IMG/VR virus record: IMGVR_UViG_3300023178_000119
Coordinates: 1 to 37,690 of that record
DNA length: 37,690 bases
Source: a virus
Strand: one strand, 5' to 3'
Part shown: positions 1 to 29,000 of the stretch, piece after piece
Layout of the letters: every line of letters begins with the position of its first letter
Numbering within the stretch: the stretch's first letter is position 1
The notes under the pieces: model-generated
The model's database searches: none
Told to the model about the DNA's origin: nothing
What the model saw: the letters and a program-made list of their open reading frames with translations, nothing else
Made by a program: the position numbers and the translations under genes

Positions 1-1
1 T

Positions 2-1922
<1,921 letters not shown>

Positions 1923-1930
<8 letters not shown>

Positions 1931-2440: not shown

Positions 2441-2962
2441 ATGTCTTGGCAGTCTGAAATAACGACAATGGTTCGATATTTGCTTGGAGATGTAGATGAT
2501 TCAAGCTATACATATTCTGACAACAGAATACAAACAACCGTTTTAGTTGCTACCCAGCTTTTGCTATCTAGCGTTAATTTTAGTCAATCATATACCGTTA
2601 GCCTTTCTGGTTTAACTTTATCTCCAGATCCTACCGATTCAGCCACTCAGGATGATAATTTCATCGCCTTGGTTTCGCTGAAAACGGCTTGCATAATCGT
2701 TGGGGCAGAAGTTAAATCTGAATCTGGCAATTCAATCTCTATTAAGGATGGACCATCTGCTATAGACTTGAGAGGGGTTAGTAGCACACTTATGGCCTTG
2801 TATAAAGACCTGTGTGTTAAATATGACTCATTAATGTTATCTTATCAGGCTGGCAATAGTATTGCTGGACAAGCTGTTCTTGGTCCATATGCTCCCGGCA
2901 GCGATTTTGTTAGAAGAAGTTATTCAAACAACGACCTTAGAGGTGGTTATTTTAGAAATTAA
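2441..2962 (+). CDS. Probable head-tail connector (adaptor) protein
   Basis: A 173-residue protein with N-terminal MSWQSEITTMVRYLLGDVDD followed by YSDNRIQTTVLVATQLL. A short helix, a 'L.GD....Ysd.ri' turn and then a long helix is the pattern of gp6-type head-tail connector proteins that sit under the portal ring. The middle and C-terminal parts have further helices (FIALVSLKTACIIVGAEV; LMALYKDLCVKYDSLML) and a disordered Gly/Arg-rich tail. Its place upstream of the fibre, neck and tail genes agrees. The gene follows a 77-base gap with a weak ribosome-binding site. The identification rests on pattern and position only; a minor virion protein of another kind is possible. Confidence 0.45.
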   Translation: MSWQSEITTMVRYLLGDVDDSSYTYSDNRIQTTVLVATQLLLSSVNFSQSYTVSLSGLTLSPDPTDSATQDDNFIALVSLKTACIIVGAEVKSESGNSISIKDGPSAIDLRGVSSTLMALYKDLCVKYDSLMLSYQAGNSIAGQAVLGPYAPGSDFVRRSYSNNDLRGGYFRN

Positions 2963-2973
2963 AGGAGAAACAA

Positions 2974-3960
2974 ATGGCAGTGTCGAAAACCGTAACAGAA
3001 TTAGTTGATGATATCAACGAACGCCTTGCAGACAATAATGCTGGACAGATTAGCGCAAAAGACGTTAGAGAGACTATGCGTAATGTTGCTTATTCTATTC
3101 CATTCGTTGTTGCTAGCGGAGACTGGGATGTTTCAAATAAAGAATTCATTAGTGATGTTCGTTTAATAACTTATAATAATCAAGGAATTATTGAGGGTGG
3201 CACACTGGTCGTACAATCTGGTGTAGTTTTTGAAAATGGCAATCCCGATGGAACCGCCCAGCAAACTCGACCTTATCTCGGTCCTACTGGCATTAATCAT
3301 GGTGAATTGGCTGATTTAACTGGTACTAGCAATGATCATCACACACAATATTTGTTAGTCGCTGGAACTAGGTCAATGGCTGGCGACTTAGGGATGGGTG
3401 ACAATTTCATCAAGCACCATAATGATGGAACTTCACACGCTGGCCACGGAATCAGGTTTGAACATGTAGACGCTAACGAAGAAATTTTACATGTTGGCGA
3501 TGAAACTAAAATTCAGTTCGATGTTGATGGCACTCAGATGACAACGGCTAGATCTAATGCTCAAGCTTGGGTTAGCTTCAACTCCGTTTCTGGCGTAGGC
3601 GAACTTAACACTCTTATTGTCAATAGCTCTTATAATGTAAGCAGTGTTAGGCGAGTTACTGAAAATGGAATTCCACAAGCTGGTAAATTCAGAGTTTATT
3701 TTAAAGCCGGTACGTTCGATAACCCTTCTGGTATATGCGCCATTGGTACAAGTAATGCAAGATCTAGTAATGCTTCTGGTGGAGATTTTGATCAAAACAC
3801 AGTATCTTGCGTTGTTAGAAATGCAAATTATGTTACATTCTACGTTCAAGACGATACCAACGCTTTTAGAGATGCCGAAGTAAATGACCTTATGGTTTTT
3901 GGAAATCCATCCGGTGTCACACCATCAGATACAGTTACCGTAAGCTATGTAGCAGAATAA
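2974..3960 (+). CDS. Fibre-like virion protein
   Basis: A 328-residue protein. Residues 5-41 form a helical segment with the wording 'ADNNAGQISAKDVRETMRNV', close to the N-terminal attachment segment often seen in phage fibre and appendage proteins. Residues 121-140 carry DHHTQYLLVAGTRSMAGDLG, a well-known fibre motif (DDH.QYL...GTR.M.GDL), which is usually followed by a beta-structured shaft and head. The C-terminal 150 residues are beta-rich with Ser/Asn/Val and no catalytic motif. A clear AGGAG-type site (AAAGGAG) precedes the ATG. Lying between connector and neck genes, it may be a neck or collar fibre like T4 whiskers, but a tail-fibre role is equally possible. Confidence 0.7.
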   Translation: MAVSKTVTELVDDINERLADNNAGQISAKDVRETMRNVAYSIPFVVASGDWDVSNKEFISDVRLITYNNQGIIEGGTLVVQSGVVFENGNPDGTAQQTRPYLGPTGINHGELADLTGTSNDHHTQYLLVAGTRSMAGDLGMGDNFIKHHNDGTSHAGHGIRFEHVDANEEILHVGDETKIQFDVDGTQMTTARSNAQAWVSFNSVSGVGELNTLIVNSSYNVSSVRRVTENGIPQAGKFRVYFKAGTFDNPSGICAIGTSNARSSNASGGDFDQNTVSCVVRNANYVTFYVQDDTNAFRDAEVNDLMVFGNPSGVTPSDTVTVSYVAE

Positions 3961-3984: not shown

Positions 3985-5358
3985 GTGACTCAAAATGCTG
4001 TCAATTTATATGATCGTGTAAAAGAATTATCTTATACAATTGGTACAAATGACTTAGAACTTTCTGGAGCATCTGCTGGTTTCAGTAGATTCAGGAGATT
4101 TTATGATCATGACGATATCATATTTTATGCTATAACCGATGGTACTTTTTACGAAGTTGGATCTGGGGTTTTTAAGAGAGAAGATTATAGTAGCATCGAC
4201 ACCATACATGTTGACACTATTGTTAGGCATCCGTTTAGAAGCAGTAACTCTGATGATAGCAAAGTAAATTTTCCTGCTGGAACTAAAGAAGTTTATGTCA
4301 CATATCCAGCTACACATTCTGTTATAATGGGTTCTGGATTAAGCCAAGGATTAAATATTCCACAAAGGCACGGTATTGCTGTGTGGGACTCAGAAAACGT
4401 TTTGAATTATTTCTCTAATTTTGTTTTCACTGAAAACGGAGGGTTGGGAATCAACCAACCAAATCCATTTTATGGCATTGACTTAGGGGGTGACGAGCAA
4501 GATTATTCATCTCGTGTGAGAGCTTCTGGGTATTATGTTGGCCCAACTGGTATTTATTTTCAAGCTAATACCACTGGAGCAAATAGTAATGATGTTGGTT
4601 TAAACTCTGAGGCATCGCCCTACGTTGGTGGCCGTCAGTTTGTACATTTTAAACCAAACTTAACAGATGTAGGCATTACCCCTAGTACGAATTCTCATTT
4701 GGTTTTTGACGTAAGCGGTGTAGTTAATGAGTATTTACTTTTAAAGAAACAATCTGCCGGTCAAGTATTCGCTGGCCCCTTAACGTCTTGTGGTAGTCCA
4801 CCTTGTGATGCTGATTATCCTTCTTTTAGGCTTCTTGGTAGTGGAGACTTGCCTATTAGTGAATTAGACACACTATACACAACCAATGATCAATTAGCAA
4901 TTACTTCTGGCTATTTAGCTTCTTATACTGACTTCGAAATATTATCTGCTTCAGGCGCACTAGATATATCCATTAGTGGTGTTCAAGCAAATTTAGATAT
5001 TCATACTAGCGGATATGTTTCGGATTTCAGAGATTTTGAAATTGCCAGCTCTGGCAGAATAGATACTTATCTAGACAGTGCTTCTGGTATACTTTATCCT
5101 CACACGGCAAGTGTTTCTAAAACCTTAGCCGCCATGTCTGCCGGTGATGTTATAGCAGAATCTTTCACCGTCAACAATGTTTCTGCTTCGTCTAACTATA
5201 CGGTTAATATTTCTCCTTCTGGAAACCTGAACGAGAACTTGCTAATTACTCACGGATTTGTGGCGTCAGACAACACTGTCTCTGGCATTTTTTACGCACC
5301 CTCTGCCTTTAGCGGCCAAACAATGACTTTCTTTATTTCTGCACACGAGGTTCATTGA
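3985..5358 (+). CDS. Fibre-like virion protein with chaperone-type fibre repeats
   Basis: A 457-residue protein starting at GTG. Residues 153-169 (GLGINQPNPFYGIDLGG) match the short motif 'lGIGt..P...LdV.G' that often precedes trimeric fibre tips and intramolecular chaperone domains, although no S74 peptidase Ser-Lys pair is seen. After it comes a regular stretch (about residues 300-365) of alternating Ser-Gly and hydrophobic positions, such as ASGALDISISG and TSGYVSDF, that looks like a trimeric shaft. The C-terminal about 80 residues are a small beta domain. Its stop overlaps the next ATG (TGATG). It probably works with the fibre protein upstream; which virion part carries them is not clear. 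Confidence 0.6.
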   Translation: MTQNAVNLYDRVKELSYTIGTNDLELSGASAGFSRFRRFYDHDDIIFYAITDGTFYEVGSGVFKREDYSSIDTIHVDTIVRHPFRSSNSDDSKVNFPAGTKEVYVTYPATHSVIMGSGLSQGLNIPQRHGIAVWDSENVLNYFSNFVFTENGGLGINQPNPFYGIDLGGDEQDYSSRVRASGYYVGPTGIYFQANTTGANSNDVGLNSEASPYVGGRQFVHFKPNLTDVGITPSTNSHLVFDVSGVVNEYLLLKKQSAGQVFAGPLTSCGSPPCDADYPSFRLLGSGDLPISELDTLYTTNDQLAITSGYLASYTDFEILSASGALDISISGVQANLDIHTSGYVSDFRDFEIASSGRIDTYLDSASGILYPHTASVSKTLAAMSAGDVIAESFTVNNVSASSNYTVNISPSGNLNENLLITHGFVASDNTVSGIFYAPSAFSGQTMTFFISAHEVH

Positions 5359-10760: not shown

Positions 10761-13700
10761 ATGTCAAAATTCGTACTTACGGCGCAACTTCAACTACAAG
10801 CTCCTAATAATGTAAAACAGGTTGTCCAGCAGATACAATCTCAACTGGGCAACCTTAAAGTTAATGTCGCCGCCGCTGGAGCCGTGCAGGCGAATAAAAA
10901 TCTTCAAAATTTAACAAAGAGTGCTGACACAGCTTCTGACAGTTTTACTCGGATGGGTAAATCTTTTACTGCTAGTGTTAGGAGGTTTTCTGCTTTAGCA
11001 ATTGCAACAAGGGCGGTTAGTTTATTTACTAATACGCTTAGTAATGCTATACAAGAATCTATTGATTTTGAGCGAGAGTTAGTGAAGATTTCCCAAGTTA
11101 CTGGGAAAACTGTTGCCCAACTTCAGGGATTGACAAATACAATAACCTCACTTTCTACTTCGCTGGGAGTTTCTTCTAATTCGTTGTTGAGCGTTTCTAG
11201 AATTTTAGCTCAGACGGGTTTATCCGCTAGAGATACAGAGGTGGCTCTTGGTACTCTAGCTAAATCAGAACTTGCACCAACGTTTGATAATATTACACAA
11301 ACGGCTGAAGGCGCTGTTGCTATCCTTAATCAGTTTGGCCAAGGGGCAGCTGCCTTGGAAGCACAGCTTGGTTCCTTAAATGCTGTTGCTGGTCAGTTCG
11401 CTGTTGAAGCTGGAGACTTAATTTCTGTTGTTCGTAGAACTGGCGGTGTGTTTAAAGCTGCCGGTGGTGATCTTAATGAGCTTATTGCGCTATTTACTAG
11501 CGTTAGAGCTACTACGCGAGAGTCAGCTGAAAGTATTTCAACTGGCTTAAGAACTATCTTTACACGTATTCAGCGCCCAGAGACTATTGAGTTTCTTAGA
11601 CAGTACGGCGTTGAACTTCTTGATTTAGAAGGTAAGTTTGTTGGTCCATATGAAGCGGTTCGTAGATTAAGTCAAGCTTTAGCTGGATTAGAACAGGGCG
11701 ATATTACTTTCGTTCAAATTGCAGAAGAGCTTGGTGGTTTTAGACAGATCGGCAAAGTCATTCCATTACTGCAACAGTTTAGCGTTGCTCAAGCTGCCCT
11801 TAATGTTGCTCAAGAAGGTTCTGGTAGTTTGGCTACAGATGCTGCAAAAGCCCAAGCCGCCCTTGCTATTCAAATCACTAAAGTTAAAGAAGAGTTTTTA
11901 GCTTTAGTACGAAGCATAACTTCTTCGTCTACGTTCCAAATCATGGCCGACACAGTGCTGACACTTACAAGCGCTTTGATAAAACTAGCAGACGCCTTAT
12001 CTCCTATTATACCTTTATTAACTGCTTTTGCTGGAATCAAACTTGCTGGTGTGCTTGGTAGTGGACTTGGTAAATTAGCCGGATTTAATAAGGGCGGTAA
12101 GGTGATGCAGTTCGCCAGAGGCGGTATGGTTCCGGGATCTGGAAATCGTGATACTGTGCCAGCAATGTTGACTCCGGGTGAATTTGTAATTAAGAAGAGT
12201 AGTGTTCAAAAGCTGGGTGCTGGTAATCTTGAGGCTATGAATAATAACAAGTTTGCTGCTGGTGGTGTGGTTACTTCTGATAGACACATGTATGGAGATA
12301 ATGCTCCTTCTGCGGCAACATTGAAGGCGCTTGAGACAAGAAAAAGAAACGCAGCATTAAGACGAGAGAAGGAAGGGAAGCAAGGGGGTACAATTCAGGG
12401 TGCTACTTTAAATTCTAGATATGGTGTTTCATTTCTGGAAGGTGGCGCTGGGAACATTGGGGCAACTATTAACCAAGTTTTAAAGTATGGCAATGCTACT
12501 GGCAAAAAGATATTACAGCAAGCTATTAGAGAGAGCGGCAAAACAGTAACGCCTGGAGCTAGAATAGATTCTCCAAACGCTGTACCAGCTACACTTAAAT
12601 CAAACGCTAAAGATATTTTTGATGAAGAAATAATGGCTGGTCTACCAAACCTATTTGATCAAGCCACTAGTAGATTTGGCGCTCCATTAAATCCCGGCAA
12701 AGTTGGTGTTAATCAATTAGTTAGTAAATCTGCTTTGCAGGCGATTAAAGGTTACTTCTTTGAGGCTTTCGCAAGGAGAATTAGTCAAAACCTTATTGCT
12801 GACAATAAGCAAGATAAAGTAGATTCCATTTTTGATTTCACGGGTGCTGGAAACGTTGCAGATTTGAAAAAAATGTTTGGTGGAAAATTTGTTAATCCAA
12901 ATGAATTTAAAGTATCTGCAACGCCAGAAAATGTTGCTAATGCTATTTCTAAAGCAATTTCTACAAGGGGCATTGGCTCAATAAGTTTATTTGCCAAGGG
13001 TGGTTCAGTTGGCACAGACACAGTTCCCGCACTATTGACTCCCGGTGAGTCTGTTGTTAATCGTGAATCAGCCCAAAAGATTGGGTACAGCAATTTGCAT
13101 CGCATGAACAAAGTTGCCAAGTTTGCCAAAGGTGGAGTTGTTGGCAAAAAAGTAAAAGCTTTTGCAGACGGTGGCACTTCTGGTTCTGATACTGGATCTG
13201 TGATGATAAATGTAGCTCCACTAAACGCCGCATTGACATCAACCGCTCAAGCTCTTACCAGTTTAGTTTCTGGTGTTGTTAATACTGCTACGGCTTTGAA
13301 TAATCTTACTCAGGCTACTTTTAACAATTTGGCTGCTACTGGTCAAATAACTTCTCAACAACAACAGGCGGCTAATACTGTTATAAAGAGTAATCAAGCT
13401 ACATTACAAGCTATCAATGCAAAAAATCAAGAATTTAAAGCTAGTTTACAGGCGGCGGCTGCTGATGATACAGAAGCTAAGAGTAGTTTAGGTGCTGCTA
13501 AAGCTGATCAAGCAGAAGCTAAATCGGGCAATGGATTAATGCTTGCTTTCTCTGCTCTAACAACTGGAATCTCTATGCTTACTCCAACAATTGATGAAAA
13601 CTCATCAGCTGGAGCAAGATTTGGGGCAAAGATAGGAGATCTTATTTTACAATTTTCTACATTGGCTTTTCTATTACAGGGGCTTGAGTGGAAGACGGTG

Positions 13701-16700
13701 GCTGGTGGTCTTAGCTCTGTAAGTCAAAGTCTCTCTGGTCTTAGTTCAGGAATCGGAAGGCTGGGTGGTGTACTTGGTAAAATTCCCGGCGCAGGATTAG
13801 TAAAAGGCGCTGGAAAATTGGTTGGTGGATCTGTTGCTTCAGCCGGTGGTTTTGTAAACCAAGGCATAGGGAAGGTTAGTAGAATGGCAGCTAGAGCAAC
13901 TGGTGCGACATCAAGCATGGGTGGCTTTGGAACAGCTGGTTCTGCTACTGGCAACTTTGCACAAACCGCTAAGGCTTTAACTTCACTAGCTAATCCAGCA
14001 ACGCTTGCAGCTGCTGCCATAGCTGCTGTTATTGCCAGTATTTATCTATGGAACTCTTCTATCGCTGAAGCTGCTGATGCTGCTAAGAAAAAAGCTATAG
14101 AAGACGGCAATGCCGCTGAAGCTGTTAAACAAGCCCAGATTCAAGCCGGTGGAGAGCAAGGAAAAGGCATGGCTAAAGGCATGGCTGCTGGAGCTTTAAC
14201 TGGCGCTGCACTTGGCGCTTTCCTTGGTCCTATTGGTATGGCGGTTGGCGCTGCTCTTGGTGCATGGGCTGGCAGTTTTTTCAGCGACTTCTTTACTCCA
14301 TTCGATAAAACCGCCGAGGTTTTAACTAAAACAGCCAATGCCGCCGCTTTACAAGTCGCTGCCCAAAAAGCATTAGCAGAATCAGGTAAGGCAGCAACTG
14401 AAGCTATGGAGAAATTTAGAAATGGTAATGCTACTGCTAGTGAAGCTCTAGCTGCAACTAGTGCTGGAACAGCAGCGGTTGTTGCCTCTCAACAAGCCAC
14501 GATTGCTGCTAATACAGCATTAATGAAAAATACTAGAACGGCTGCTAGTGCTGTTGGTGATTTCTTAGTTGGTCTAACAGGTTTTAGTTTTGGTTTTGGA
14601 ACTACCGCTCAAAATGAACAAAAAGCTCAAGCACAAATTGATGATAATAACAAAGAACAAGACCGACTTTCTAAAGAGGCTGTATCGCAAAACCAACCGG
14701 CAATTAATGCTCTAAGCAAACAAGTTGCTGTTGCTGGTGGAGATTTTGCTACATTCTTTGCCAAATTACAAGCTGCAAATCCGGGATTAGCGAAGTTAGC
14801 AGATCAAGACGAACTTAAAAAAGCTTTTGAAAACGTACAAAAAGAAGTTGAAAGAACACAGGCGGCTTTTGCAGCCATGAATCTTGGCTTTCAAGGTGTT
14901 AACGCTGCGGCTACAGCTGCTGGACTTGCTGTGGATAATCTTGTTGGTGGTTTTGAAGGCACTAGTAATGCTATTGAAAGATCTATTGCAACACTAGAAG
15001 CTGGGGTTACTAACGCTGCCCAAGGTATAAGTGATGAAGCTTTCTCTGGCGCGGTGGATTCTGCTGCTGCTCAAATTGAAAGATTTGGTGGTGATGCTAC
15101 TAAGTTTAGAGAAAACTTAACCGCGATTAATACTGCTCAAAAATTCTTTGCTAGAGCTAGCGCGGATGCTAAAGCGAAATTACAAGCAGATTTTGCACGA
15201 GGCGTGTCTGACTCAGGCGTTAGTACAGCCGAAGGAAGGCGAGGCGCACTTGCTGATGCTATAGTTGGTCAAATGGACGGTGTTGGAGAAGACGTAAAGA
15301 AGAGAATCAAAACAGCCTTAGAGGGTGCTGATATTTCTCAAGAAGACATGGACGCCATTCTTGCTGGAGATATGAGTGTATTAGATAAGGTTTTGAAAGA
15401 CCTTGGAGACACAACATTATCTCAAGTCATGCCAGCACTTAAAGCTGCTGCTGAAATACAAAATAAATTGAATTCCGTCATATCTAAACGGCTAGCTTTA
15501 GAAAATGAATTTGCGGCTGCTACAAAAAGACAAATTGATGTAACACTTGAGGCTGCTAAAATTATGCAAGAGTTTGGTGGCGCACAAGTAACGCCCCAAA
15601 TGCAATCTCAAGCTGCTGTTGACAGGCTAAATGTAACTGGGGCGCAGCTTGGCTTGCCACAAATGTCTACTGGAAGCGCAGATGAAATAAGAAGAAGAAA
15701 TGCTGAAATTAATGCTCAGATGCAAGCACAAGCTAACGATAGAAATTTAGCTGCTGCTGGTGACACTGAAGCTCAAGCAAGGATTAACACTCCTGAATTC
15801 CAAGCTAACGAAGAGAGACTAAAGAAGGCCGCTGAAGAAACTTACAATGAAACTAAGAAGTTAATCGACGCCAGAAGAGAAGAAATTAAAATTATCAATG
15901 CTAAAACTGCCGCTGAGAAAAAAGCCACAGACGCATTGCTTGGTAATAACGTTGAAGAGTTTCTTGATCAGATGGCTGGACGAGGCGCAGCCGCCGCAGC
16001 AGCAATTGGCGATCCAACTCTTGCTGGCCAGTTTGGAGCTAGTGCTTTTGGTACTGCTAATAAGCAATTAGAAGAAATGCAAAACGCTGGTGTGACTACC
16101 TTTATGGGGCAAGACATTGGGGCTGTTAGGCAAAGCGCTGTTGGTATGGGCTTATCTAACGCTGGTCTTAGTGGAGACATAGTATCTGATTTAGCAAAAG
16201 CGGCAACTGGAACAACAGACGCAGCCGAAGCGGCTAAAGCTGCCGCTAGAGATTTAGCAAGCACTCTTCCACAATCAACTGGTAACTTACAATCTGCTAC
16301 TGGGCATATGTTACAAGCAACACAAATTCTAGAAAGCACGGTTGAAAAACAAGCAGCAGAAGCAACAGCTAGGGTGGAAGAAAGATCAGCCGGTGCAGCA
16401 CCAGCCGCTCCAGCCGCTCCAGCCACCCCCTCCGGTGCTGTTCCAACCGGTGCTGCTCCAACCGGTGCTACTCCACCAGCCACCCCCGATCCTTCTACTA
16501 CTACCACTACTACTCCCGCTCCAGTTCCAACACCACCCTCTGCTCCAACACCACCTTCTAATATATTTGAAGCTGGTTATAATGCGTTTAGTAGCCCAAG
16601 TGCAATGGCTCCATCTGCCCCAACGGCTGCTGCGCCCGCTAGTGAGCAACAGGGCTTTGCGTCTGGTTTACAAAGCGTACAAACTTCTACCGACTCACTT

Positions 16701-17081
16701 ACATCTGCGATTACACCTCTAGTTTCTCAATTTGCTGGCTTAAGTACGTCGTTAAATAGTGTAAATACTACTATGCAATCTTTGATACAAAGCTTTAGCA
16801 ATTTACCCTCATTCGATTTTTCTGGACTTGAAGGCATAGCTAGCACTTTTGATAATTTCAATAGCACGTTTTCTGCGACTGTAGATCGCCTTGAAGGGTT
16901 AAACATTCAGGTTCAAGTCGCGCCCACTAATGTAAATGTAAATCTTACTGGTGGTGAATTCTTGAAGAGTATAGAAGGTAGGATAAGAGAAGATATTATG
17001 AACAGCGTTGCTACTCAGATTAAAAACATTAAACACACCCCTAACGGTGGCCACGAATCGTCTGGTGGAAACTTAGCATAA
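10761..17081 (+). CDS. Tail tape measure protein
   Basis: A 2106-residue protein that sets tail length and is probably injected with the DNA. Residues about 50-370 match the TP901-type tape measure core (FERELVKISQVTGKTVAQLQ; then SLGVSSNSL, GQFAVEAGDL, RRTGGVFKAAGGDLNELIAL, GLRTIFTRI). Residues 442-498 and 744-795 carry two copies of a Gly-Gly / DTVPA.LTPGE motif. Between them (about 500-743) is a nuclease-like segment. Hydrophobic stretches at about 1077-1098 (ANPATLAAAAIAAVIASIYL) and a glycine-zipper-like segment at 1134-1178 may insert into the host membrane. A long helical Ala/Gln-rich part follows, then a Pro/Ala/Thr linker at about 1877-1934. The C-terminus (VQVAPTNVNVNLTGGEFLKS) is the usual beta/helix end. 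At the usual rule of about 1.5 angstrom per residue the tail could be about 300 nm long, less if the inserted domains do not span the tube. Confidence 0.9.
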   Translation: MSKFVLTAQLQLQAPNNVKQVVQQIQSQLGNLKVNVAAAGAVQANKNLQNLTKSADTASDSFTRMGKSFTASVRRFSALAIATRAVSLFTNTLSNAIQESIDFERELVKISQVTGKTVAQLQGLTNTITSLSTSLGVSSNSLLSVSRILAQTGLSARDTEVALGTLAKSELAPTFDNITQTAEGAVAILNQFGQGAAALEAQLGSLNAVAGQFAVEAGDLISVVRRTGGVFKAAGGDLNELIALFTSVRATTRESAESISTGLRTIFTRIQRPETIEFLRQYGVELLDLEGKFVGPYEAVRRLSQALAGLEQGDITFVQIAEELGGFRQIGKVIPLLQQFSVAQAALNVAQEGSGSLATDAAKAQAALAIQITKVKEEFLALVRSITSSSTFQIMADTVLTLTSALIKLADALSPIIPLLTAFAGIKLAGVLGSGLGKLAGFNKGGKVMQFARGGMVPGSGNRDTVPAMLTPGEFVIKKSSVQKLGAGNLEAMNNNKFAAGGVVTSDRHMYGDNAPSAATLKALETRKRNAALRREKEGKQGGTIQGATLNSRYGVSFLEGGAGNIGATINQVLKYGNATGKKILQQAIRESGKTVTPGARIDSPNAVPATLKSNAKDIFDEEIMAGLPNLFDQATSRFGAPLNPGKVGVNQLVSKSALQAIKGYFFEAFARRISQNLIADNKQDKVDSIFDFTGAGNVADLKKMFGGKFVNPNEFKVSATPENVANAISKAISTRGIGSISLFAKGGSVGTDTVPALLTPGESVVNRESAQKIGYSNLHRMNKVAKFAKGGVVGKKVKAFADGGTSGSDTGSVMINVAPLNAALTSTAQALTSLVSGVVNTATALNNLTQATFNNLAATGQITSQQQQAANTVIKSNQATLQAINAKNQEFKASLQAAAADDTEAKSSLGAAKADQAEAKSGNGLMLAFSALTTGISMLTPTIDENSSAGARFGAKIGDLILQFSTLAFLLQGLEWKTVAGGLSSVSQSLSGLSSGIGRLGGVLGKIPGAGLVKGAGKLVGGSVASAGGFVNQGIGKVSRMAARATGATSSMGGFGTAGSATGNFAQTAKALTSLANPATLAAAAIAAVIASIYLWNSSIAEAADAAKKKAIEDGNAAEAVKQAQIQAGGEQGKGMAKGMAAGALTGAALGAFLGPIGMAVGAALGAWAGSFFSDFFTPFDKTAEVLTKTANAAALQVAAQKALAESGKAATEAMEKFRNGNATASEALAATSAGTAAVVASQQATIAANTALMKNTRTAASAVGDFLVGLTGFSFGFGTTAQNEQKAQAQIDDNNKEQDRLSKEAVSQNQPAINALSKQVAVAGGDFATFFAKLQAANPGLAKLADQDELKKAFENVQKEVERTQAAFAAMNLGFQGVNAAATAAGLAVDNLVGGFEGTSNAIERSIATLEAGVTNAAQGISDEAFSGAVDSAAAQIERFGGDATKFRENLTAINTAQKFFARASADAKAKLQADFARGVSDSGVSTAEGRRGALADAIVGQMDGVGEDVKKRIKTALEGADISQEDMDAILAGDMSVLDKVLKDLGDTTLSQVMPALKAAAEIQNKLNSVISKRLALENEFAAATKRQIDVTLEAAKIMQEFGGAQVTPQMQSQAAVDRLNVTGAQLGLPQMSTGSADEIRRRNAEINAQMQAQANDRNLAAAGDTEAQARINTPEFQANEERLKKAAEETYNETKKLIDARREEIKIINAKTAAEKKATDALLGNNVEEFLDQMAGRGAAAAAAIGDPTLAGQFGASAFGTANKQLEEMQNAGVTTFMGQDIGAVRQSAVGMGLSNAGLSGDIVSDLAKAATGTTDAAEAAKAAARDLASTLPQSTGNLQSATGHMLQATQILESTVEKQAAEATARVEERSAGAAPAAPAAPATPSGAVPTGAAPTGATPPATPDPSTTTTTTPAPVPTPPSAPTPPSNIFEAGYNAFSSPSAMAPSAPTAAAPASEQQGFASGLQSVQTSTDSLTSAITPLVSQFAGLSTSLNSVNTTMQSLIQSFSNLPSFDFSGLEGIASTFDNFNSTFSATVDRLEGLNIQVQVAPTNVNVNLTGGEFLKSIEGRIREDIMNSVATQIKNIKHTPNGGHESSGGNLA
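12084..12257 (+). repeat. First Gly-Gly / DTVPAMLTPGEF motif in the tape measure
   Basis: Residues 442-498 contain FNKGGKV, ARGGMVPGSGN, then DTVPAMLTPGEFVIKKSS and a run ending LGAGNLEAMN. This motif is common in tape measures. The second copy lies at 12990-13145; the two share the order GG, DTVPA.LTPGE.V....S..K.G..NL..MN. Confidence 0.85.
12260..12989 (+). other. PD-(D/E)XK nuclease-like segment within the tape measure
   Basis: Residues about 500-743 form a mixed alpha/beta segment unlike the helical rest. It contains GYFFEAFARRI (Glu668 in a helix), then DKVDSIFDF (Asp688, Asp692), then 22 residues later NEFKVS (Glu715-x-Lys717). Helix Glu, Asp, spacing of 20-odd, E-x-K is the signature of PD-(D/E)XK endonuclease folds. 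The match is by eye; the fold is not confirmed. Confidence 0.4.
12990..13145 (+). repeat. Second Gly-Gly / DTVPALLTPGES motif in the tape measure
   Basis: Residues 744-795 contain FAKGGSVGT, DTVPALLTPGESVVNRES, KIGYSNLHRMN and FAKGGVVG. It repeats the element at 12084-12257 and closes the nuclease-like segment. Confidence 0.85.
16390..16560 (+). repeat. Pro/Ala/Thr-rich linker in the tape measure, including six Thr
   Basis: A low-complexity stretch of Pro-Ala-Ala units, two Val/Ala-Pro-Thr-Gly-Ala units and a run of six Thr codons (16497-16514). DNA units CCAGCCGCT and CCAACCGGTGCT repeat nearly exactly, so it probably grew by duplication. It marks a flexible hinge before the C-terminal tape-measure domain and resembles the poly-Thr linkers at 2-1486. 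Confidence 0.8.
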
Positions 17082-17094
17082 ACAGGATAAAAAG

Positions 17095-20000
17095 ATGTCA
17101 CAAAGATGTGCAGAACAGGATTCTTTTGAAGTTAGAATCAAAGCTACTACAAAGCTAAGAAATCATCTAACTAAAAAAGTAAAACTTAAAGCGAAACCAA
17201 GAATTAATTCTAGGCTTAAAGCTTTTGCGTCTGTGCAGATTATTGGTTTTGCTAGAGGTGGTGGCGCTTCAGAATCTTTTGCTAGTAACAATTTTGGCTC
17301 TGTAGATTTTGGAGCAGAACAGTTACAATCTGGGCCAATTATGCCCAAACTGATGCGTGGTGATACAAATATTGGTTTCAATTCTGTAAAAGAGTTTACC
17401 AAAAAACCACCAAGGTCTTTACCTTCACAGTTGGTTGATATTGAATCTGCTGAAATAAAGAATGGTGGGTGGGATGCTATTCCAGATTCTGTATACGACC
17501 CAGCTACTTCAAATAATCACTCATATACTTATGTCAACTCTCCACAATTCATACATCGCCCTATAGCTAGGTTTAAATCTTCTTCTCGTTTTAGATCTTC
17601 TCTTGGAAGTCCACTTGTTGGCATGGTTGCAAAGATCAATGCTTCTACGAAATTTGTATCTAAATTCTTCCAAAAGATTAAGGGTCATCCAGCTACTTTA
17701 AACTCATTTAATTTTGATAGCCCATATATACAACGGTTATATCCAGAAGGAGACGGCGTTGTTGATAATGAAGTTGTTTTTGTTGACAAAATATACAGAT
17801 CAAGTGGAGTTTACAGTAGTGTTGACGAGGGCGTGTTTACTGGTAGCGTTATGCAGAATGGCGGTACTGGCTTTTTAATGTCAGATGATAGCGATACTTA
17901 CATTACTCCATCTTCCATAAGTACAGATCATATTGCTAGCTATAAATGTTTTCTTACTACTCCCAATATTACTCCGCTTGAAACGCTGCTCTTTTTTCGT
18001 GCCAATACACCATTCCACGTCAATGAAACAGATCAGCCACCAACTTATGATATAGAAAACATACTCTTCTTAGATCCTTCTGGAAACAAAATAGCTAAGT
18101 ATAAGGACGTTACGGTTAATGCTGAATCAGATTATTACAAGTCTTCTGTCTCTAAGATAGATAGAGATTGGTTTACCATTGTTACTGAGCCTCTAGAATT
18201 TTATGCTGGAACTGGTGTTAATAGAATAGACTATCCAATACTTGGTGAACCAAGTGGTTATACGCTTTCTTTTGATGTTAAATCTCATTGTAAATTTGAA
18301 CCGTTTGACGATGGCTTTAATGAAGGCTTTGAGGAAGGTTGTGATATCAGCAAATTGGGCTTAGATCTTGCTACACACTATTTGCCAGCAAATTCTGTTA
18401 ATAATCATCTTGGAATATCAAGCACACCATTATCAACACGAACTCAAGGTTACAGATTAAATCTAAACAACTCCATAAGATTCTCTGCTCTAGAAATTGT
18501 TAATCGCGGTATAAATTTTGGCATTATAGAAGACGCAGTTTTAAATCTAAATATGCAACCGCAACCAACCGGCCAGAGGTTGGAAAGAATTTTATCACCT
18601 ACAAAGGTTCTTACTACTAGCTACACTAATAATATTTACCCAACTGGAATAATTAACACTTGGGTTTCTTCCCCTGACACCGAAGGCGCAACGTTTGACA
18701 ATACTTCAGATGAATATTCGAACGTGCTTAAGGATAGGCTTAATAATCGTTTTGTTGATGGATGGATTACTTTAGATGATATTAATCCAATCTCTGCTTC
18801 TGGTAAGCTACAATTACAATACAGACACAGTGCGCCAAAATCTACTAAGCAACCAACTGGTGGATCATTTTTGTTTGGTCAAAAATATGGTGGTTCAGAC
18901 TTTGGTACAGCAAGGATAGAATTAGTAGCAGCCGATGATTCATTCTATGTTGTTGAAGAAATTACTCTTAGGGTTTCAGCAAAGAAAGCTCCCGGAACTT
19001 ATGATTATCCTATTGATGTTGTTGGCTACAGCAATGATGGAGTTTTAGCTATAACACCACAGGTTGGTGGATTTTTGCAAAATGCAGAAATTGGTTCTGG
19101 CACAGTTCCTATGGGTTCTGGCTTTGCACCTACTGATGACTTAGGAATTTCTACAAGTTCTCTATCTGACAAATACGCATATTTCCAAGAGAAGATTATC
19201 CAACATGCCGCTGGAGATCATTATCTTATTACCCAATCTCCAGTTGTAAACAGCACATCATTTAAAACATATGACATCCCACTTAAGATTTACAATGATG
19301 TAGTTGAATTGGGCCGATCAAAAGATTACTCCATGAGTACTTATTTTGAGGATTTGTATTTAGATATTTATCCTATACCTAGCGGAGCCTCTATACAACG
19401 CGCTGATTTGATTATCAAATATAAGCCAGCTGGCAGTATGCCTCTAATGACAGCTGGTTATCTTTCAAAACAGTTCTATAGCAGAGAAGGCCGTCTTTAT
19501 CCAGACGCAAAACAAGGCGCTGATGTTATAACTAACTCAAACGCTTCCCCACTATCTTTGATTGAAAATATTCCGCATGGTTATACATCTTTAGAAGATA
19601 CTCTGAAGACAAATTATGCTAGAAGGTGGCGTGGTAACACTGGAAATGTTGACAGTTCGCCCTTTGATCCAGTATCTTTTGATTTCTCTTTTGAAAGGTC
19701 TGCGTTAGACCAACCGTTCCTACTTGGGTATTTTGACTTTAATAAGAAGAATGGCAATGTAATACAAGACAATAACGGTGACAATATTATTTCTGGAGTT
19801 TTCAACTCCGACTTATCATCAAGTTTAACTCGTAATATTGGCTTAAGGTTTAATTCAGACAGCTTATTTGCTAGCAATTTAAGAAATTACAAAACAATTG
19901 ATTGGTGTGGCAGTGGCCACGAACTAGAAGGAAAAATACTAGACGCATATGATAACTCTCTTAGGGTTTCTGGCGTTAATGGCTACTTGGATTTCGGCAA

Positions 20001-23000
20001 CGTCCCGACCTATAGCGGTTTCTCAATTTATACAAGATTCTCTCCAGACTCTAGTATTAGCGGGGTTGGTTACAACGGTTGGGACGATGGTGTTATTTTT
20101 GGAAAGTGGGATAATGGACAAGACTTAGAATATGCACTTGCCTATGAAAATGGATATCTTTGTGCATACGCAAGATCTCAAGACGCATCAATTATTAAAA
20201 TTACTGATTCAGAACCATACACATCTTATCAATACCCTCTTTCTACCTTGGTTACATACAATCAGAACAACGATCAAAAACTTAGACTCTATACGTACAA
20301 TGAACTTTCTTCTGGTATTATAAGCTCCACTTCTGATGCATTTGTTTTACACAGTGGTAATAGCAATTTGTCATTTGGTTACTCTGCTGGATCTGGCGTG
20401 GGCATTAATGCGTTTATTCATGAGATTGGTATTTCTGATGTAAATGCTAGCGGCTCGACCAATCTCGTTGAGGGAATAGCCAATAGGTCAATACAAGAAG
20501 ATACAGTCGAAGATTTCTTCGCTTCTCAGGCGATTAATTTCTGGGACGGTTCGGACAACTTGTGGAAATACGTTGACGAAAAAACCGACGATTGGAAGCT
20601 TGGTGCTTTTAAATATTGCTCCTTTTCACCCGACTTTGATGTAATGAGTCTTCGCATTGGAAGAGACTTCATATATCACAAGTTCTACAATCATGGCCAA
20701 AGTTATGCTGACTTAACAGATCTAAGTCTACCAGATTCAGTCAATGCTTCAAGTTTAGCATATCACACACAAATTGAAAATGATATGTTGAGAGTTCACC
20801 TGTCTGGTCGTGAGGATAGATTTTATGCAGTTGCTCCAAGAATTTGTAAAAACTTCCCACGAAGTTATTTATTTGCAGAAGATTCTTTGTTAGTAAATAC
20901 TATTATGCAACACACCTGTGATCAGGATATTGTGTGGCCAGATGGAAAGCGTGGAGTTAAAGTTATTGTTAGTCTTTACACCCCAAGAAAAGAGAGCGTT
21001 TACACACCAACTACCAACTATGGCTTGATTAGTAGAGACATACACTATGTTACTCAGGAAGATTGTTGGTTTAAGCTCAGAAGTAAGTTTACTTTAGAAA
21101 ACTACAATGACTCCAGCAGTGAGCCTTGGGCTTACTTCGATAAAACTATAAGCAAGAAGGAATTCACAGAGAACTATTTTGCAAGAGACATTGACGAGAT
21201 GTTTGTGCAGTATGACTTAGTTTATCCATCGGGGTCTTATGAAGAGTCTAAAGTTTTGATACATTCTCTAGACATTAGCCTTGACAACATACTGTTAAAC
21301 AAAGCGAATGAAAACGAACGTTTAAATGTTTACACTAGCGGAGAAAAATACAGAGACGCATCTTTAAATCTATCTTGGGCTGAAGGGGCAGTTAAGGGCG
21401 TTATTGCTGCACAAGATTTTGGTTCTTCAAACTATGGCGTAGTTCTTGGAGATGTTATTACGCTTAACGATCTATCGCTTGGTCTTTACACAAGCGGAAA
21501 TGTATATTCCAATATTGATACACCTAGTGGACTCAGCCTGTACGCTTCAGGTTATACCTATGATGCAGATGTTCTTAATCTTTACAACATGGGTAGTCTG
21601 CCAGATAGTGGGTTACTAAATATTTATAGCTTTGGTTGGTACGCTAACGAAAACAACCTCAACAATCCATTCACTTTATATTCTGATGGATTCTACGCAA
21701 ACGCAGAACGCATGAATGGCTCACTAAATGTTTACACAATTGGCACTAATGATGAAGGACAGTTCTATAACACATATACTAGCGTATTAAATAACTTCAT
21801 TCTTGGTGGTCCTCCAGCTACTGCTTTCCCATTAACTTTTGCTGATTCAATTTCCCTATACACAGTTGCTCCTGCGAATACTTTTTCCACTATCAACACA
21901 TCTATTGATCTACATATGCCTGTGCGTAAAGTTGAAGATACAATCTTCGATAATATCACTCTTTATACTCACCATGAAGCAATAGTAGCCAAAGAAGAAA
22001 ACCAGCTAGAATCTTTCTTGTGGAATGGAAGCAACTTTGGTTTTGAGATTTATGTCGATGATAATAAATATGCTTCAGTACCAGCAGATGATGAAATTAG
22101 AGGCGTTAACACTATGTGTTATGGTGATTGTAATTCTCTTGCTGGATTACCATGTTCTGAAACAGATATCATTACTCACGATACATTGTGGTATTCGCCA
22201 GACTGCGTGGATGGTGGAGTAATAAGACCTTTTACCGTTTATAGCAATCCAGACGTAAATGCCTTTGGCACAGACGAACCTTATGATAAGCAATATTACG
22301 GAATTAGAAAGTTCACAAATTTAATACCATATGCTCCTTATAGGATTAAGATAACTGGCCAGAGTGGTGGCAGTGAAGTATTGGAAGTGCCTAGAGAAGT
22401 TGCAGAATGGAACTATGGTAAGTCAGAAACTCCTAGCGGCGTCGTTAGCCCAGAAGTTAACTACTCAGGCATAAAACTTCTTGAAGATCTAAGCAATCGC
22501 TCCGCTGGAAATAAATTTGGTAAAGCCGTCAAAGTGGTTGGCGACATGTTGGCTGTTGGCGTCCCACACGCAGACAATACAGTTGGGGTGGACGATTTAT
22601 TAAATTCCGATACCGCATCTCGTCCCGTAGATAGTCATGGCAAGATATACGTTTATCGAAGATATCCTGCACCATCGGGTTATGATTGGACAAATCAAGA
22701 TGATCAATCTCAATGGTATGTTGAGCAGGAAATTGTTTTACCAACTGGATGGCGCAGAGACTATTTCACAAACACAGTTGCAAAATTTACTGATGACACA
22801 GGAAACACGTTACCATTTACTGGAACTGTAAGAAACTGGTTAAATTCGGGTGAAGGCAGAGAGCTTGGTTATTCCTTAGACGGAACAAAGGTTGGTGAAA
22901 AAGAAATTATTGTAGCTGGCGGTCCCGGATGTAAGTGGACTAGAACATTTGATCCAGTATCAACTACTCCAGTTTCTATTGGGCTGTTTGTTTTTAACAA

Positions 23001-26000
23001 TGAGCTAGAGCCAAACGTGAAAGATTGGAAAAATATTTTAGATGAGTTACAGGATAGAGATATTCTTTATCGCTACTTTGCTGACCCACCTGTAGAGTTT
23101 GATATCAAGATTATGATATTAGAGCCGCATCTCGGTTCAGATATTCCCTTCCAGCAGTCTGATGAGTTTAACAGCCCTCAACCAGATTTTGTATCCAAGC
23201 ACTTAACAACCAGACATTGGAATAGAAGCACTACTAGTCAAGAATGGATTGATGCTGACGCAACAATTCTTCAAGAAATGCAAAACATTTTCCACGAAAC
23301 GTTCCCTCTTACATCTGAAGCTTTACATAGCGGTATTCCTCCACTCCTTGGTATATTTATCGATGATTCAGTTTCTTTAGGAACTGAAACTGTTGGTTAT
23401 TATACCAATGGTTTCAAGGGCGCTGTTAATAAGTTTATTGATTATTATAAGTCCTATTCATACAACAACGGACTAGCAGATTATGGTGGAGATGCAGCAG
23501 AAGGCTACGTCCAAGTTACTACTAGTAAACAAGAAGTGAACTGGGTTGATCAATCAATCTCATGCTTGAAAGACGTTACTGATATATCAAAGATAAATAG
23601 CGCAGGAAAAGCCACTCTGATAGCTAACAATATCGGAACTTTCAATTCAAACGCTAGTGAATTCAATAACCCACCACCGAGCGGTGGGGCTGTTTACATA
23701 TTTGAAAAAGATAATGAAAATTCTTCTTTTGAACTTAAACAAGAAATAAGATCTCCAATTACATACACCAACGACGCATCCGACAGGTTCGGCCACGACG
23801 TTGCAATCAGTGAAGATGGAAATATTATTGTTATTGGTTCACCTTATTCTGAGTATGCAGTTCAGGTTTTTGAAAGAAATGATTCACACGATACCGATTT
23901 AACTAATCTCATACACCAGAGATTGCCAGCATTTTTAAATGCAGAATACAATAAAGAAATTAGAAATGAAACCTTTGGCGAAGCATTCAACTTGTATGAA
24001 GATTATCTTGAGGGCAGAAATACCGTTCATGAGTTTAAGCTAACCGAGTCTTTATTTGATAGAATGTCAGAAAGCCTTAGATTCTCTTTCTACAAGTCCT
24101 ATAGCATATCGCCGTACAAAAAGATTAAAGATGTCACATATTCTGATGTTTATCAAGATCGTGGAGATCGTTGGAGTGAATTGTACTCTAATTACATACC
24201 CACGCCTCGTCTTGGTTATAGTGTTGATACAAATAGCGACGGTACATTAATTGCTATTGGTTGTCCTACCGATAGCCTTGGTGAACGGGATCAAACTATT
24301 ACTTGGTTTAGATACGATAATGAACAAACGCAAAATTGGCAATGGCAAAACTATGTCAATGCTGGATGTGTTAGAGTTTTAGAAAGTAGAAAATATTATC
24401 CACATACTAATAAGGTGGTTGAATTCTACAAGTATGGAAACCTTCATGAAGATCTCGCCACAGAAGATACCAAGTATTTATATTATGATAATCTCAAGCA
24501 AATGTTTGAAAGTCAACGGCTAGACTACTCTCGTACAAGTTTTGCCGAAGATGTCGAAATACCAGAAGATGCTGGAATGGCTTTAATTATAACCCCAGCA
24601 ATAGATGCCTCTAGCGATGAAGTTGTAAACAATATTAAGACTTGGCTTGCCAAGGGCGATAGGCACTTAGTTCTTGTCGCTGATGATCCAAGATATGAAG
24701 AAAATGGAAGGTTCCAGAAGTCAACTGGTATTATCAATACACTGCTTGAAAAGCTCGATATCAATATGAGAGTTTATCCAGCCAGAAACGAAAGAGAAGC
24801 ATTACTTGAAAGTACAAATATAGAACTCAACGTTCAAAAATCTTTCGTACCAGCTAAATCTACTCCTCTAATTGGTTATACTGGTAGCAAATTAAAAGGA
24901 TATGGAGTTGGTGATATTAGGCATTATAATAAGGACAAGTTAGACCTGTACAACTGTACTCTTCCCTATGGAACCAAACTGACTAGTAATGGTGAATTAA
25001 CTGAGGACTATAGCGATCCTTTTGCTATCTTAGAAAAGATTGATCTTGGTGGAAATATTGAGCAGGCTAATAGAAAAAAGATTTACAGAGAAATGCATAA
25101 TAAGTGCCACTTGCCAATTATGCATGAGGGCGATCTCAGAGCAGAATATCAAGACCAGTGCGCTTTAGAAACTCCGAAGGGAATTGTTTGGTTAGATTAT
25201 AAGCGAAACCTAGCTTTTGCTTACGAAGATCATAATGTTGTTAATTGGGGATGTTTTACTAATAATGGTCCTAAGCCAATAGACCCAGATCCGAATTTAA
25301 GAGATTCACACGCTCCCGTTCCTATGCTTGCAGCATATGAGAATATTAATCTCAAAGTTGATGTTCCAGAAGTTCCTGCTTCTGAAGATATTCAAAAATA
25401 CATTGCTTCTTATAAGTATGGTGCTGATAAAAATGAATTTGGTAAAGTTCCTTACTCTGGAATTGTTTTCTCTTGGACTGCTGATCAGCAAAATTACACA
25501 TCCATAGAGCATAACATTAATAATATAACTAGTGAAAGTTTATTCTTTGATCCCCCAGCTACAGCCTCTGCTGATGGCTTCATTGACGCAGTAATGCAAG
25601 CAAAAGCAACAACACCGCTTCAAGATGTTGAAAAAGAAGTTAATGCTGGCCTATTCAATGTTGCTAATGAGGAAGCCTATCGCCCCGGTGAAGTGAATAA
25701 TTCTTATGTCACTTTAATAGCTACAACTTTCCTCGAAAGAAAAGATATATTACTTTCTTCTAACAATGATGAGAATCTGCTTTTCTATAAGAATATTCTT
25801 GGTTATAAAAACCCATTAAATTCTCAAGGTTTTTATTCTAAGGTTGCACAGCTTGGTAGTTTCACAAATAGATCAAGTTATACAGATGGTTACTTTAAGA
25901 GTGACATATCTATGCAAATGTACGGCCTGGGCATCGACATGAGAGATCTTAATGTTGACATCGATGATATATCGTTAGAGCATTTAGAATACAATGTTGT

Positions 26001-29000
26001 GTGGATTGCTAATACTGACCAGATGCCATCTGATGAAGATATTGAAAAGCTGAAAAACTTCTTAAGTCTTGGCAACAAAAAGTTGGTTATTACTTATGGC
26101 CAAGAACCAGCAAAGGCAACAGAAAGTCATGAGTTAACTCCATACATGATAAGATCTGCTAATGTGGCCAAAGCAATCTGTGAAAAACTAGGCGTTACGA
26201 TGCGTCCCAACTTCTTAGTTGGTAAAAACAAATATGCAGAAAAATTAGACCACAGCTTGTACAACAGTTATAATGGGTACACCTTCTTAAAAATTATCTC
26301 TCAGTATGCCGGTGATGGCATAGAGGACGTTGGTGATGATTACAAGATTTTCGAAACTAACGCCCCACCATATGATAGATCTGGCATAGGCACTACCTTG
26401 GATCATAACATCATACCAATATCAAAGGGTAATAGTTCAATTTTATTGAGATGCGATGGGTTTGTTTCAGACATAGAAACTGTTTTGCTAGGAAAGCCAC
26501 AATTAAACACAGGAATTACTAAGGTAACATTTGATATTCCAGATCACTCTACAGAACTATCGCACGAGCTAGGTCGAGAAAAAGAAGACGAGTTCTACTT
26601 ATTCAGAATGTATTTTGATGTAATATCTTTGACGGAGCAAGAAAGTCAAAATATTAGAGTGTATGTTGAAAATGGACAAAATATAATTAGCACCAACGAG
26701 CAGGGTCAAGCAATTTCACCTCAGTCTATTAGGAGTAATTCTGTTACAGTTCTCGACGGCGACGACCTCGGCAATATTATTAGGACCAAGCTAAACATTG
26801 GCGCTTCTAGAGGTCTTAATGCATCATCATTCCTAAAAACTTATGAGCTAGACTTTCAGGCTGTTAGCGGTAGTCAGGTACATTTTTATTTTACTGGATA
26901 CAAAGCTTGGCCAGAAAAAAGTCTAGTAGAAAATCCAGAACAAGTAAGAACAAGTAGACTTGTTAATGTTTCTGGGGTTAGAGTTCCTTTGCAAGTTTCT
27001 GTTGGTGAAAAAGTTCCAGTATATGATTTTAGAACAATAGAAATTCCAGCCGTACCCGGATACTCTTATGATCAGGATGTTAATAGACAAATTAGCACGA
27101 ATAGCTCTAAGTATTGTGCAGAGAATTATTCTGAGATCTGCGCTGCCGAACCCCCAATTGGATATGGTACAGATGGTCCTGATTTAGACATAGCTGATGG
27201 TCCAGTGGTAATTGCTCAACAGGTTTATGATCAGGGTGGTTTTTTTGCTGGACATAATAGATCTAGAGTGACTGTCATTAGTGATGCTAGTTTAATTCAA
27301 GGTCCAAATATTGCAAGTCAAGATGCTATTATTTCTGACTTGCCTAACTTCTTGCGTTCATTATATCCAACTATTCCAGAGTTCTTCCAAGACGAATACT
27401 ATGGAACACAACAAAGTACCTTCTATCCAAATGCTTACAAATTAATTTCTCCAGAGCGTTCTAGTCCAAGTAGATTAGCCAATGCATTTCCCCAGAACTC
27501 TGGCCTCAACGCTAGGTTTGGTGGATATCCAAGCTCTGGTTTATCTGTGAGCTTGTATGCTGATGATGAAGGCAAAAAAGACATTGAAATTCCTTTAGGT
27601 AAAGAAAAGCCTGAACAGCCATTCGATCTAATGCTTGGACTACTTGAAGCTGACGATCCCGGAACTTTTAGAAAATTACCCAAGTCACCAAGATTACCCC
27701 CAAGTCACTTCTTCTCTATTCCTCCATATACTTATGGTGAATATACAAAGGAGCAGTACGAACAAAAATGGTATGTAGACGAATTCCTTACTTATCAAGA
27801 TTATTGGGCCTCTACTTCCAAAATTCAAGACGTTTACCAAGGCCAAACTTATGTAGATGCTGGCTTGTCTGAAAGAATTCCACCTATTATGAAGGCTACT
27901 GGGTTTGACCATCTTGATCTAGATGTATTTAACTCTGGTTATCCCGGAGATTTGTTTGGTTATAAGGTTTGTATACACAAAGATAAGATTTATGTAGGCG
28001 CTCCGTTTAGTCCTTACAATTCTGAAACTATACTACCTTGGTCTGGTATTCTTAATAGCGGATCTATGCATGGGGTTGAGGTTGGTTATAATGGTGGCGC
28101 TGGCGCTGTTTATCAAATAGAAAAGGTTGGCAATGATGGTGATGGAAGGGGTTCAATTCAAGGATCTCCAAAAGTCACTTCGGGTCTACCTTGGAAGACT
28201 GTTAAGAAATTTAGACCAGATCAACTTGGTGTTGGCTTCACTAATCTTACAGCATCTGAAGCATCTGGCATTTTTGGCACTCATTCTTATACAGATAATT
28301 TCTTACAAAACAATGCTTTCGTTTCAGATATGTTTGGTTATGATATCACATTAGATGCTGACCTTATGGCGATATCCGCTCCGGGTCATGACTTTGAAGT
28401 ATTTTTTGAGGATCAGCCGGGAGAATTTGTTAACAAAGCGTTTAATGAGCAATTCGCCATTGCTAAACGAGTTGAGCATGATTTAGCATATCAGGAAAAT
28501 AGATTTAATTATCCAGATAGCGGAGTAGTAAGAATTAATAATGGCGCTGTATTTACTTACGAAAATAAGATTAGCGATTGGGGATCTAAGAAGCAAGCTT
28601 GGACGCCAATACATAAACTTACATCTCAATATGCTAGCTCAGATTTAGATAATTCTTACTTTGGGCAAGCGATCAGCATGTATAGATCCAACAGATCTGA
28701 TGGAGATTACATTTTAGCTATTGGCGCACAGCGTCACGGCCTCTTGCCATCTGAGAACATAGGGGCAGTATATACTAATGATGCAATGTTAAGAAAATTA
28801 AGACCCGGATTTTCTCATCCAGACACATATTTAGCTGGTAGAGTTTTTGGAAATTACAAAGACAAAGATGAGTATATTGAATTTAACTTTGCAAACGGTA
28901 ATATTCCTGATCAGAAACATATTTTTGAGGGATTACTATTTGCTAACGAAGAGGGAGAAATATTCATCGAAGCTTCAGGTCAGGACTTCGTAGAAAGAGG

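Follow-up and report, generated by a model that had tools for sequence, protein, structure and literature searches.

The DNA that we analysed, referred to below as the window, is the complete virus record IMGVR_UViG_3300023178_000119 (37,690 bases), and all features described here lie on its + strand. Its largest feature is an open frame for a giant protein of 4078 aa (P0001; 17095..29331), which adjoins, on the downstream side, the gene for a tail tape measure protein of 2106 aa (10761..17081; PHROGs tail length tape measure, best 2.8e-17). The giant protein itself had no match in a PHROGs search. The gene order is the same in its relatives, where the tape measure gene lies upstream of the giant gene and genes for proteins of 572 aa and 1405 aa lie downstream; in loci reaching that far the order is fixed as tape measure, N-terminal half, propeller, and the 572-aa and 1405-aa genes. 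We assigned the giant protein to the tail because of this synteny, which supports the 4078-aa product as a putative structural tail protein of a long-tailed phage. TerL is present in seven of the nine records searched for TerL and sheath genes, and Phage_sheath_1 is absent from all nine, the latter suggesting that the tail of these phages is non-contractile. At the beginning of the window (1-1930) there is a frame that is cut off, whose domains are separated by long threonine-rich linkers.

Scans of viral collections recovered relatives of the giant protein at roughly 30-80% identity, all of them on metagenomic contigs. The same order of seven propeller blades and two large inserts (insert 1 and insert 2) was found in 92 frames, 45 of which, including the window, remained after removal of near-copies. 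Both inserts are kept in every relative long enough to judge, and none of the complete ORFs lacks them; those relatives that miss a part mostly run into the end of their contig, and in one of them, L050, the break is within the gene. Mean identity is 25-53% over the main domains, only loops and linkers being much lower. The propeller half is a gene separate from the N-terminal half in L011, L035, L045, L053, L054, L075 and L079; the two parts overlap by 4 bases in L011, and the split position varies among loci. A close relative of this tailed-phage group was not found among 50,697 phage records, and cellular genomes gave a single match, on a contig of a SAR202 MAG. Two contigs of this MAG, L109 and L151 (C9 and C7), carry the tail module with the same tail gene order. 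They appear to be contigs of phages that were binned together with it, and would be either co-binned phages or else a hint of the host.

The preliminary description of this DNA placed a LamG-like lectin domain in the N-terminal part of the chain. The corresponding region (about residues 901-1150; 19795..20544) is indeed conserved, and Laminin_G_3 matches it in one of 44 members (1.3e-6), but the window sequence itself has no Pfam match there, so that a conserved LamG-like region stands and its identification as a lectin is weakly supported. Short repeats of the form LNLYxSG are located on both sides of the propeller, at residues 1410-1550 and 3994-4045; a loose version of the pattern has 12 matches in the giant protein, where shuffled sequence would give 0.9. 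These repeats may be small beta hairpins belonging to a fibre or linker.

We identified exactly seven FG-GAP units in residues 1805-3899, with segments starting near residues 1808, 1924, 2232, 2373, 3621, 3747 and 3857. The profile FG-GAP_2 (PF14312) matches the whole giant protein with an E-value of 5.8e-13 (49.3 bits; cut-off 23), and a search of the window with PF01839 gave no match. When the segments were searched singly against FG-GAP_2, segments 1, 3, 5, 6 and 7 scored E-values of 5e-6 to 0.01, and segments 2 and 4 were missing from the match list. When profiles of the seven segments, built over the 45 members, were compared with one another, 20 of the 21 pairs matched at 77-98% probability, the exception being blades 4 and 7 (14%), whereas 126 control windows taken elsewhere within residues 1786-3960 reached at most 11%. 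Since the segment pairs match and the controls do not, there are seven units and none further in residues 1786-3960. A unit profile recovers the identical seven segments in the window protein, and among the 45 non-redundant members it counts seven units in 41, with three members at eight and one at six. Thus the seven FG-GAP-type segments claimed in the preliminary description are borne out by both their number and their family.

The segments are assigned as follows: blade 1 at residues 1808-1824 (22516..22566; strand 3 at 1849-1856), from unit profiles and the structural model; blade 2 at 1924-1944 (22864..22926), from the segment profile comparison, with strands 3 and 4 at 2195-2220 (23677..23754) in the model; blade 3 at 2232-2250 (23788..23844), from unit profiles and its own FG-GAP_2 match (5.4e-6); blade 4 at 2373-2391 (24211..24267), from profiles; and, from profiles and model, blade 5 at 3621-3637 (27955..28005), blade 6 at 3747-3763 (28333..28383) and blade 7 at 3857-3900 (28663..28794). 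Blade 3 contains a helical insert at residues 2265-2335 (23887..24099; helices in the model, mean identity 23%), which, like the content of insert 2, had gone unmentioned before. The Gly/Pro/Gly positions of the Cage motif are near-invariant in the columns scored in register, with the flanking aromatics partly present; these counts leave out some motif columns of blades 5, 6 and 7. Metazoan integrins have Ca loops of the DxDxDG type in three or four blades. By reading the seven segments, we found a clear loop of this type in blade 4 only, namely the Dx[DN]xDG-like DTNSDG at residues 2378-2383 (first D in 20/45 members).

AlphaFold2 models, computed with 45-row alignments for residues 1786-2960 (pLDDT 77.7) and 2780-3960 (pLDDT 74.9) with the inserts retained, folded the propeller as two separate halves, blades 1-4 and blades 5-7. 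In structure searches of the PDB, integrin alpha chains rank first for both halves. For blades 1-4 these are 5e6r by Foldseek (E 1.3e-6) and, by VIA alignment, 7usm, integrin alphaM (Z 18.5, 2.5 A over 198 residues); for blades 5-7 they are 9dia by Foldseek (E 4.7e-5) and, by VIA alignment, 8xfg, integrin alphaV (Z 14.0, 2.8 A over 159 residues). The Foldseek TM-scores are low (0.09-0.2) over these multi-domain models, as is expected because domain placement differs, and we therefore put the weight on the VIA alignments. Sequence searches of the PDB with queries A2, A3, A4, A7 and A8 returned nothing credible. In integrins, the segment before blade 1 provides the last strand of blade 7; alignments that give the corresponding phage segment this role are plausible but weak. 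The integrin-type propeller proposed earlier is thus supported by the profiles and by the predicted structure of each half, and the two modelled halves would together close into one ring. We consider it highly probable that the C-terminal half of the giant protein contains a single seven-bladed propeller of the integrin type, into which inserts 1 and 2 are set. The least probable reading that we consider is that there is no single ring, with blades 1-4 and blades 5-7 either folding as sheets of their own or pairing across two copies of the protein: although about 1,100 residues lie between the halves, each of which has its own model, both superpose on integrin rings at 2.5-2.8 A, 41 of the 45 members have seven units, and the phage locus L104 has seven contiguous ones.

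Insert 1 (residues 1951-2194; 22945..23676) is an alpha/beta domain in the strand 2-3 loop of blade 2, modelled with a pLDDT of about 73-95. It exits after the GAP strand of blade 2 (GGP, 1942-1944) and re-enters at strand 3 (GGAVYIF, from 2197), and its length varies from 227 to 292 residues across members. Its mean identity is about 34%, with a nearly invariant DxSxS motif (DDSVS, residues 2090-2094; 23362..23376) in which the D is kept in 44, the first S, as S or T, in 45, and the last S in 44 of the 45 members. The model has the order beta-alpha-beta-(beta)-alpha-beta-alpha-beta-alpha, and the motif is located at the end of the third main strand. The first strand ends with FTDEF in most members, and its aspartate (D in 36/45, N in 7/45) is the best candidate for a second metal-site aspartate; the residue is N in the window's own subgroup. 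The insert had been likened to a vWA domain, and what holds of this is the DxSxS motif. Pfam VWA matches insert 1 in none of 40 members at E<=1, and vWA profiles align with the native, doubled or rotated insert at the motif only (10-13 columns, probability 0.5% or less), the vWA reference being 18 segments from loci L110-L146 picked by motif, with an unusual first row and a profile that is not ideal. VWA_2 gave one sub-threshold match in the genomes of the relatives, to a 266-aa frame away from the giant gene. The top Foldseek rows of the first half are the I-domain integrins alphaL and alphaE, aligned over more than 700 columns, up to 727 columns for the whole first-half model, and alphaX, likewise an I-domain integrin, is aligned over 177 columns only; the long alignments are suggestive at most of an I-domain-like insert 1. 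The VIA alignment lists contain no vWA chain besides integrins, but the propeller fills these lists, so that they are uninformative on insert 1. In vWA domains the DxSxS strand comes first and the TD strand later, and the modelled strand order of insert 1 could be that of a vWA domain with its halves swapped. We consider it unlikely that insert 1 is indeed a vWA-type MIDAS domain with swapped halves (TDE strand first, DxSxS third), in which case phages would have independently evolved an integrin-like, metal-dependent propeller adhesion head with a GldG/IFT52-like module opposite.

The preliminary description also located this insert close to the site of the integrin I domain, which is inserted between blades 2 and 3 (PMC3192720). 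The blade end should be the same, but the insert interrupts blade 2 itself, separating its strands 2 and 3, instead of lying between blades 2 and 3. According to PMC3192720, loop 3 contains segments B and C and loop 1 contains segment A; the blade end where they lie, which the strand 2-3 loop shares with the loop before strand 1, is opposite the end that carries the Ca-binding 1-2 and 3-4 loops. As the 2-3 loop is at the same blade end, insert 1 should share a face with the integrin I domain, one loop away. An origin around the first chordates is reported for I domains (PMC3192720). Because of this origin, the different loop and the undetectable vWA homology, we agree with the earlier view that the likeness to I-domain integrins is likelier to reflect convergence than common ancestry.

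Insert 2 (residues 2434-3600, the end being approximate; 24394..27894) separates blades 4 and 5 by about 1,100 residues (945-1198 across members), leaving the propeller after strand 3 of blade 4, and is present in all relatives complete enough to judge. Its domain 1 (residues 2436-2600; 24400..24894) is DUF4350/GIFT-like, with DUF4350 matching 27 of the 45 members at E<=1 (best 2.8e-4), and its domain 2 (residues 2870-3060; 25702..26274) is GldG/ABC_transp_aux-like, with ABC_transp_aux matching five of the 45 members (best 4.1e-5; 0.003 in the window, which is below the curated cut-off). They are followed by a beta-rich region (residues 3131-3300; 26485..26994), seen as strands in the model of residues 2780-3960, and by a conserved third alpha/beta piece (residues 3320-3440; 27052..27414; mean identity 42% in the alignment). 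The families DUF4350 and ABC_transp_aux presumably belong with GldG, and insert 2 appears to contain two weakly recognisable DUF4350/GldG (GIFT)-like domains. GIFT denotes the N-terminal domain of IFT52 and is named for GldG and intraflagellar transport (PMC10191852). Because its exit follows strand 3 of blade 4, insert 2 is probably on the face opposite insert 1, judging from loop order, and we assume that the strand after insert 2 completes blade 4.

Animal integrins use a seven-bladed ring to grip other cells. In the phage, the propeller ring would be a rigid hub of the tail tip, displaying the DxSxS domain outward, a divalent metal bound at this domain would help to hold a ligand on the host surface, and the opposite face of the ring would join the rest of the tail tip. 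We infer ring closure, faces, metal, tail-tip position and host binding, and to the architecture and this mechanism taken together we give a chance that falls just short of even. What counts against them is the lack of detectable vWA homology of insert 1 beyond the motif, the N at the FTDEF aspartate in the window's subgroup, and the conservation throughout the protein, as many receptor-binding tips are not conserved throughout. Alternatively, the protein could be a conserved scaffold of the tail tip or baseplate, whose propeller and inserts bind other tail proteins and leave host recognition to other genes, a reading that could well be right even though we lean against it. All domains, insert 1 among them, are kept in all judgeable relatives, the position beside the tape measure gene is fixed, and the propeller half is a separate gene in some relatives. 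The even conservation over the main domains would favour a structural hub, and suits a tip hub as well as a receptor binder. On the other hand, the near-invariant DxSxS in a surface-inserted alpha/beta domain, together with the LamG-like region, would favour ligand binding, and such a site would also be kept by conserved receptors on related hosts. With low certainty, we place host gripping slightly ahead of pure scaffolding. Very unlikely, in our opinion, is a trigger device modelled on the integrin head, which shifts upon ligand binding by the I domain: binding at insert 1 might shift the propeller and the GldG-like module and thereby open the tail. The loop positions of the two alpha/beta modules, on opposite faces of the ring, would suit such a device, but these faces are deduced from loop order and the movement is hypothetical.

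A giant tail protein common to dozens of uncultured phages, and apparently undescribed, is therefore a candidate host-gripping or tail-tip part. To our knowledge, chordate integrins are the only proteins for which a metal-site domain set into an integrin-type propeller has been described. A conserved counterpart in phages, with inserts on two of its faces, would, if true, show this solution reached independently, and at minimum we would have a new type of conserved tail-tip hub. A search of the open-access literature found no paper that treats phage-tail propellers of the FG-GAP or integrin-like kind; within this literature and the collections searched, the giant protein is a real, conserved and apparently undescribed variant of a known fold. 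With the I-domain integrin alpha chains (alphaL, alphaM, alphaX and alphaE) it shares seven FG-GAP blades, the best structural match of both halves, and an alpha/beta domain with DxSxS near blade 2, probably on the same face. It differs from them in the loop that receives this domain (strands 2-3 of blade 2 rather than between blades 2 and 3), in the second large insert, in the lack of detected vWA homology and in having a clear Ca-type loop in a single blade. Domains of the GIFT type (GldG, IFT52; DUF4350, ABC_transp_aux) resemble insert 2 through weak Pfam matches, but these are mostly sub-threshold, and the domain is duplicated and set inside a propeller. Bacterial integrin-type propellers, which have seven FG-GAP/Cage units in prokaryotic proteins, resemble it in the number of units, but they are reported to be compact and to have a Ca site in each of their blades (PMC3192720), whereas the phage propeller is interrupted twice. 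FG-GAP units are also found in the large phage proteins of L104, Phage C48C1 (WJE88002.1) and Sinorhizobium phage Phosso (XYS97267.1), but these are tandem arrays of more than seven units in all, with no match to either insert: L104 has seven contiguous uninterrupted units (residues 1376-1793) and a second, partly degenerate set (2189-2576), C48C1 has about 13 units, and Phosso more than 30. Given these uninterrupted arrays, a phage protein with FG-GAP propellers is nothing new in itself; the giant protein described here differs in having a single seven-unit set with two large conserved inserts.
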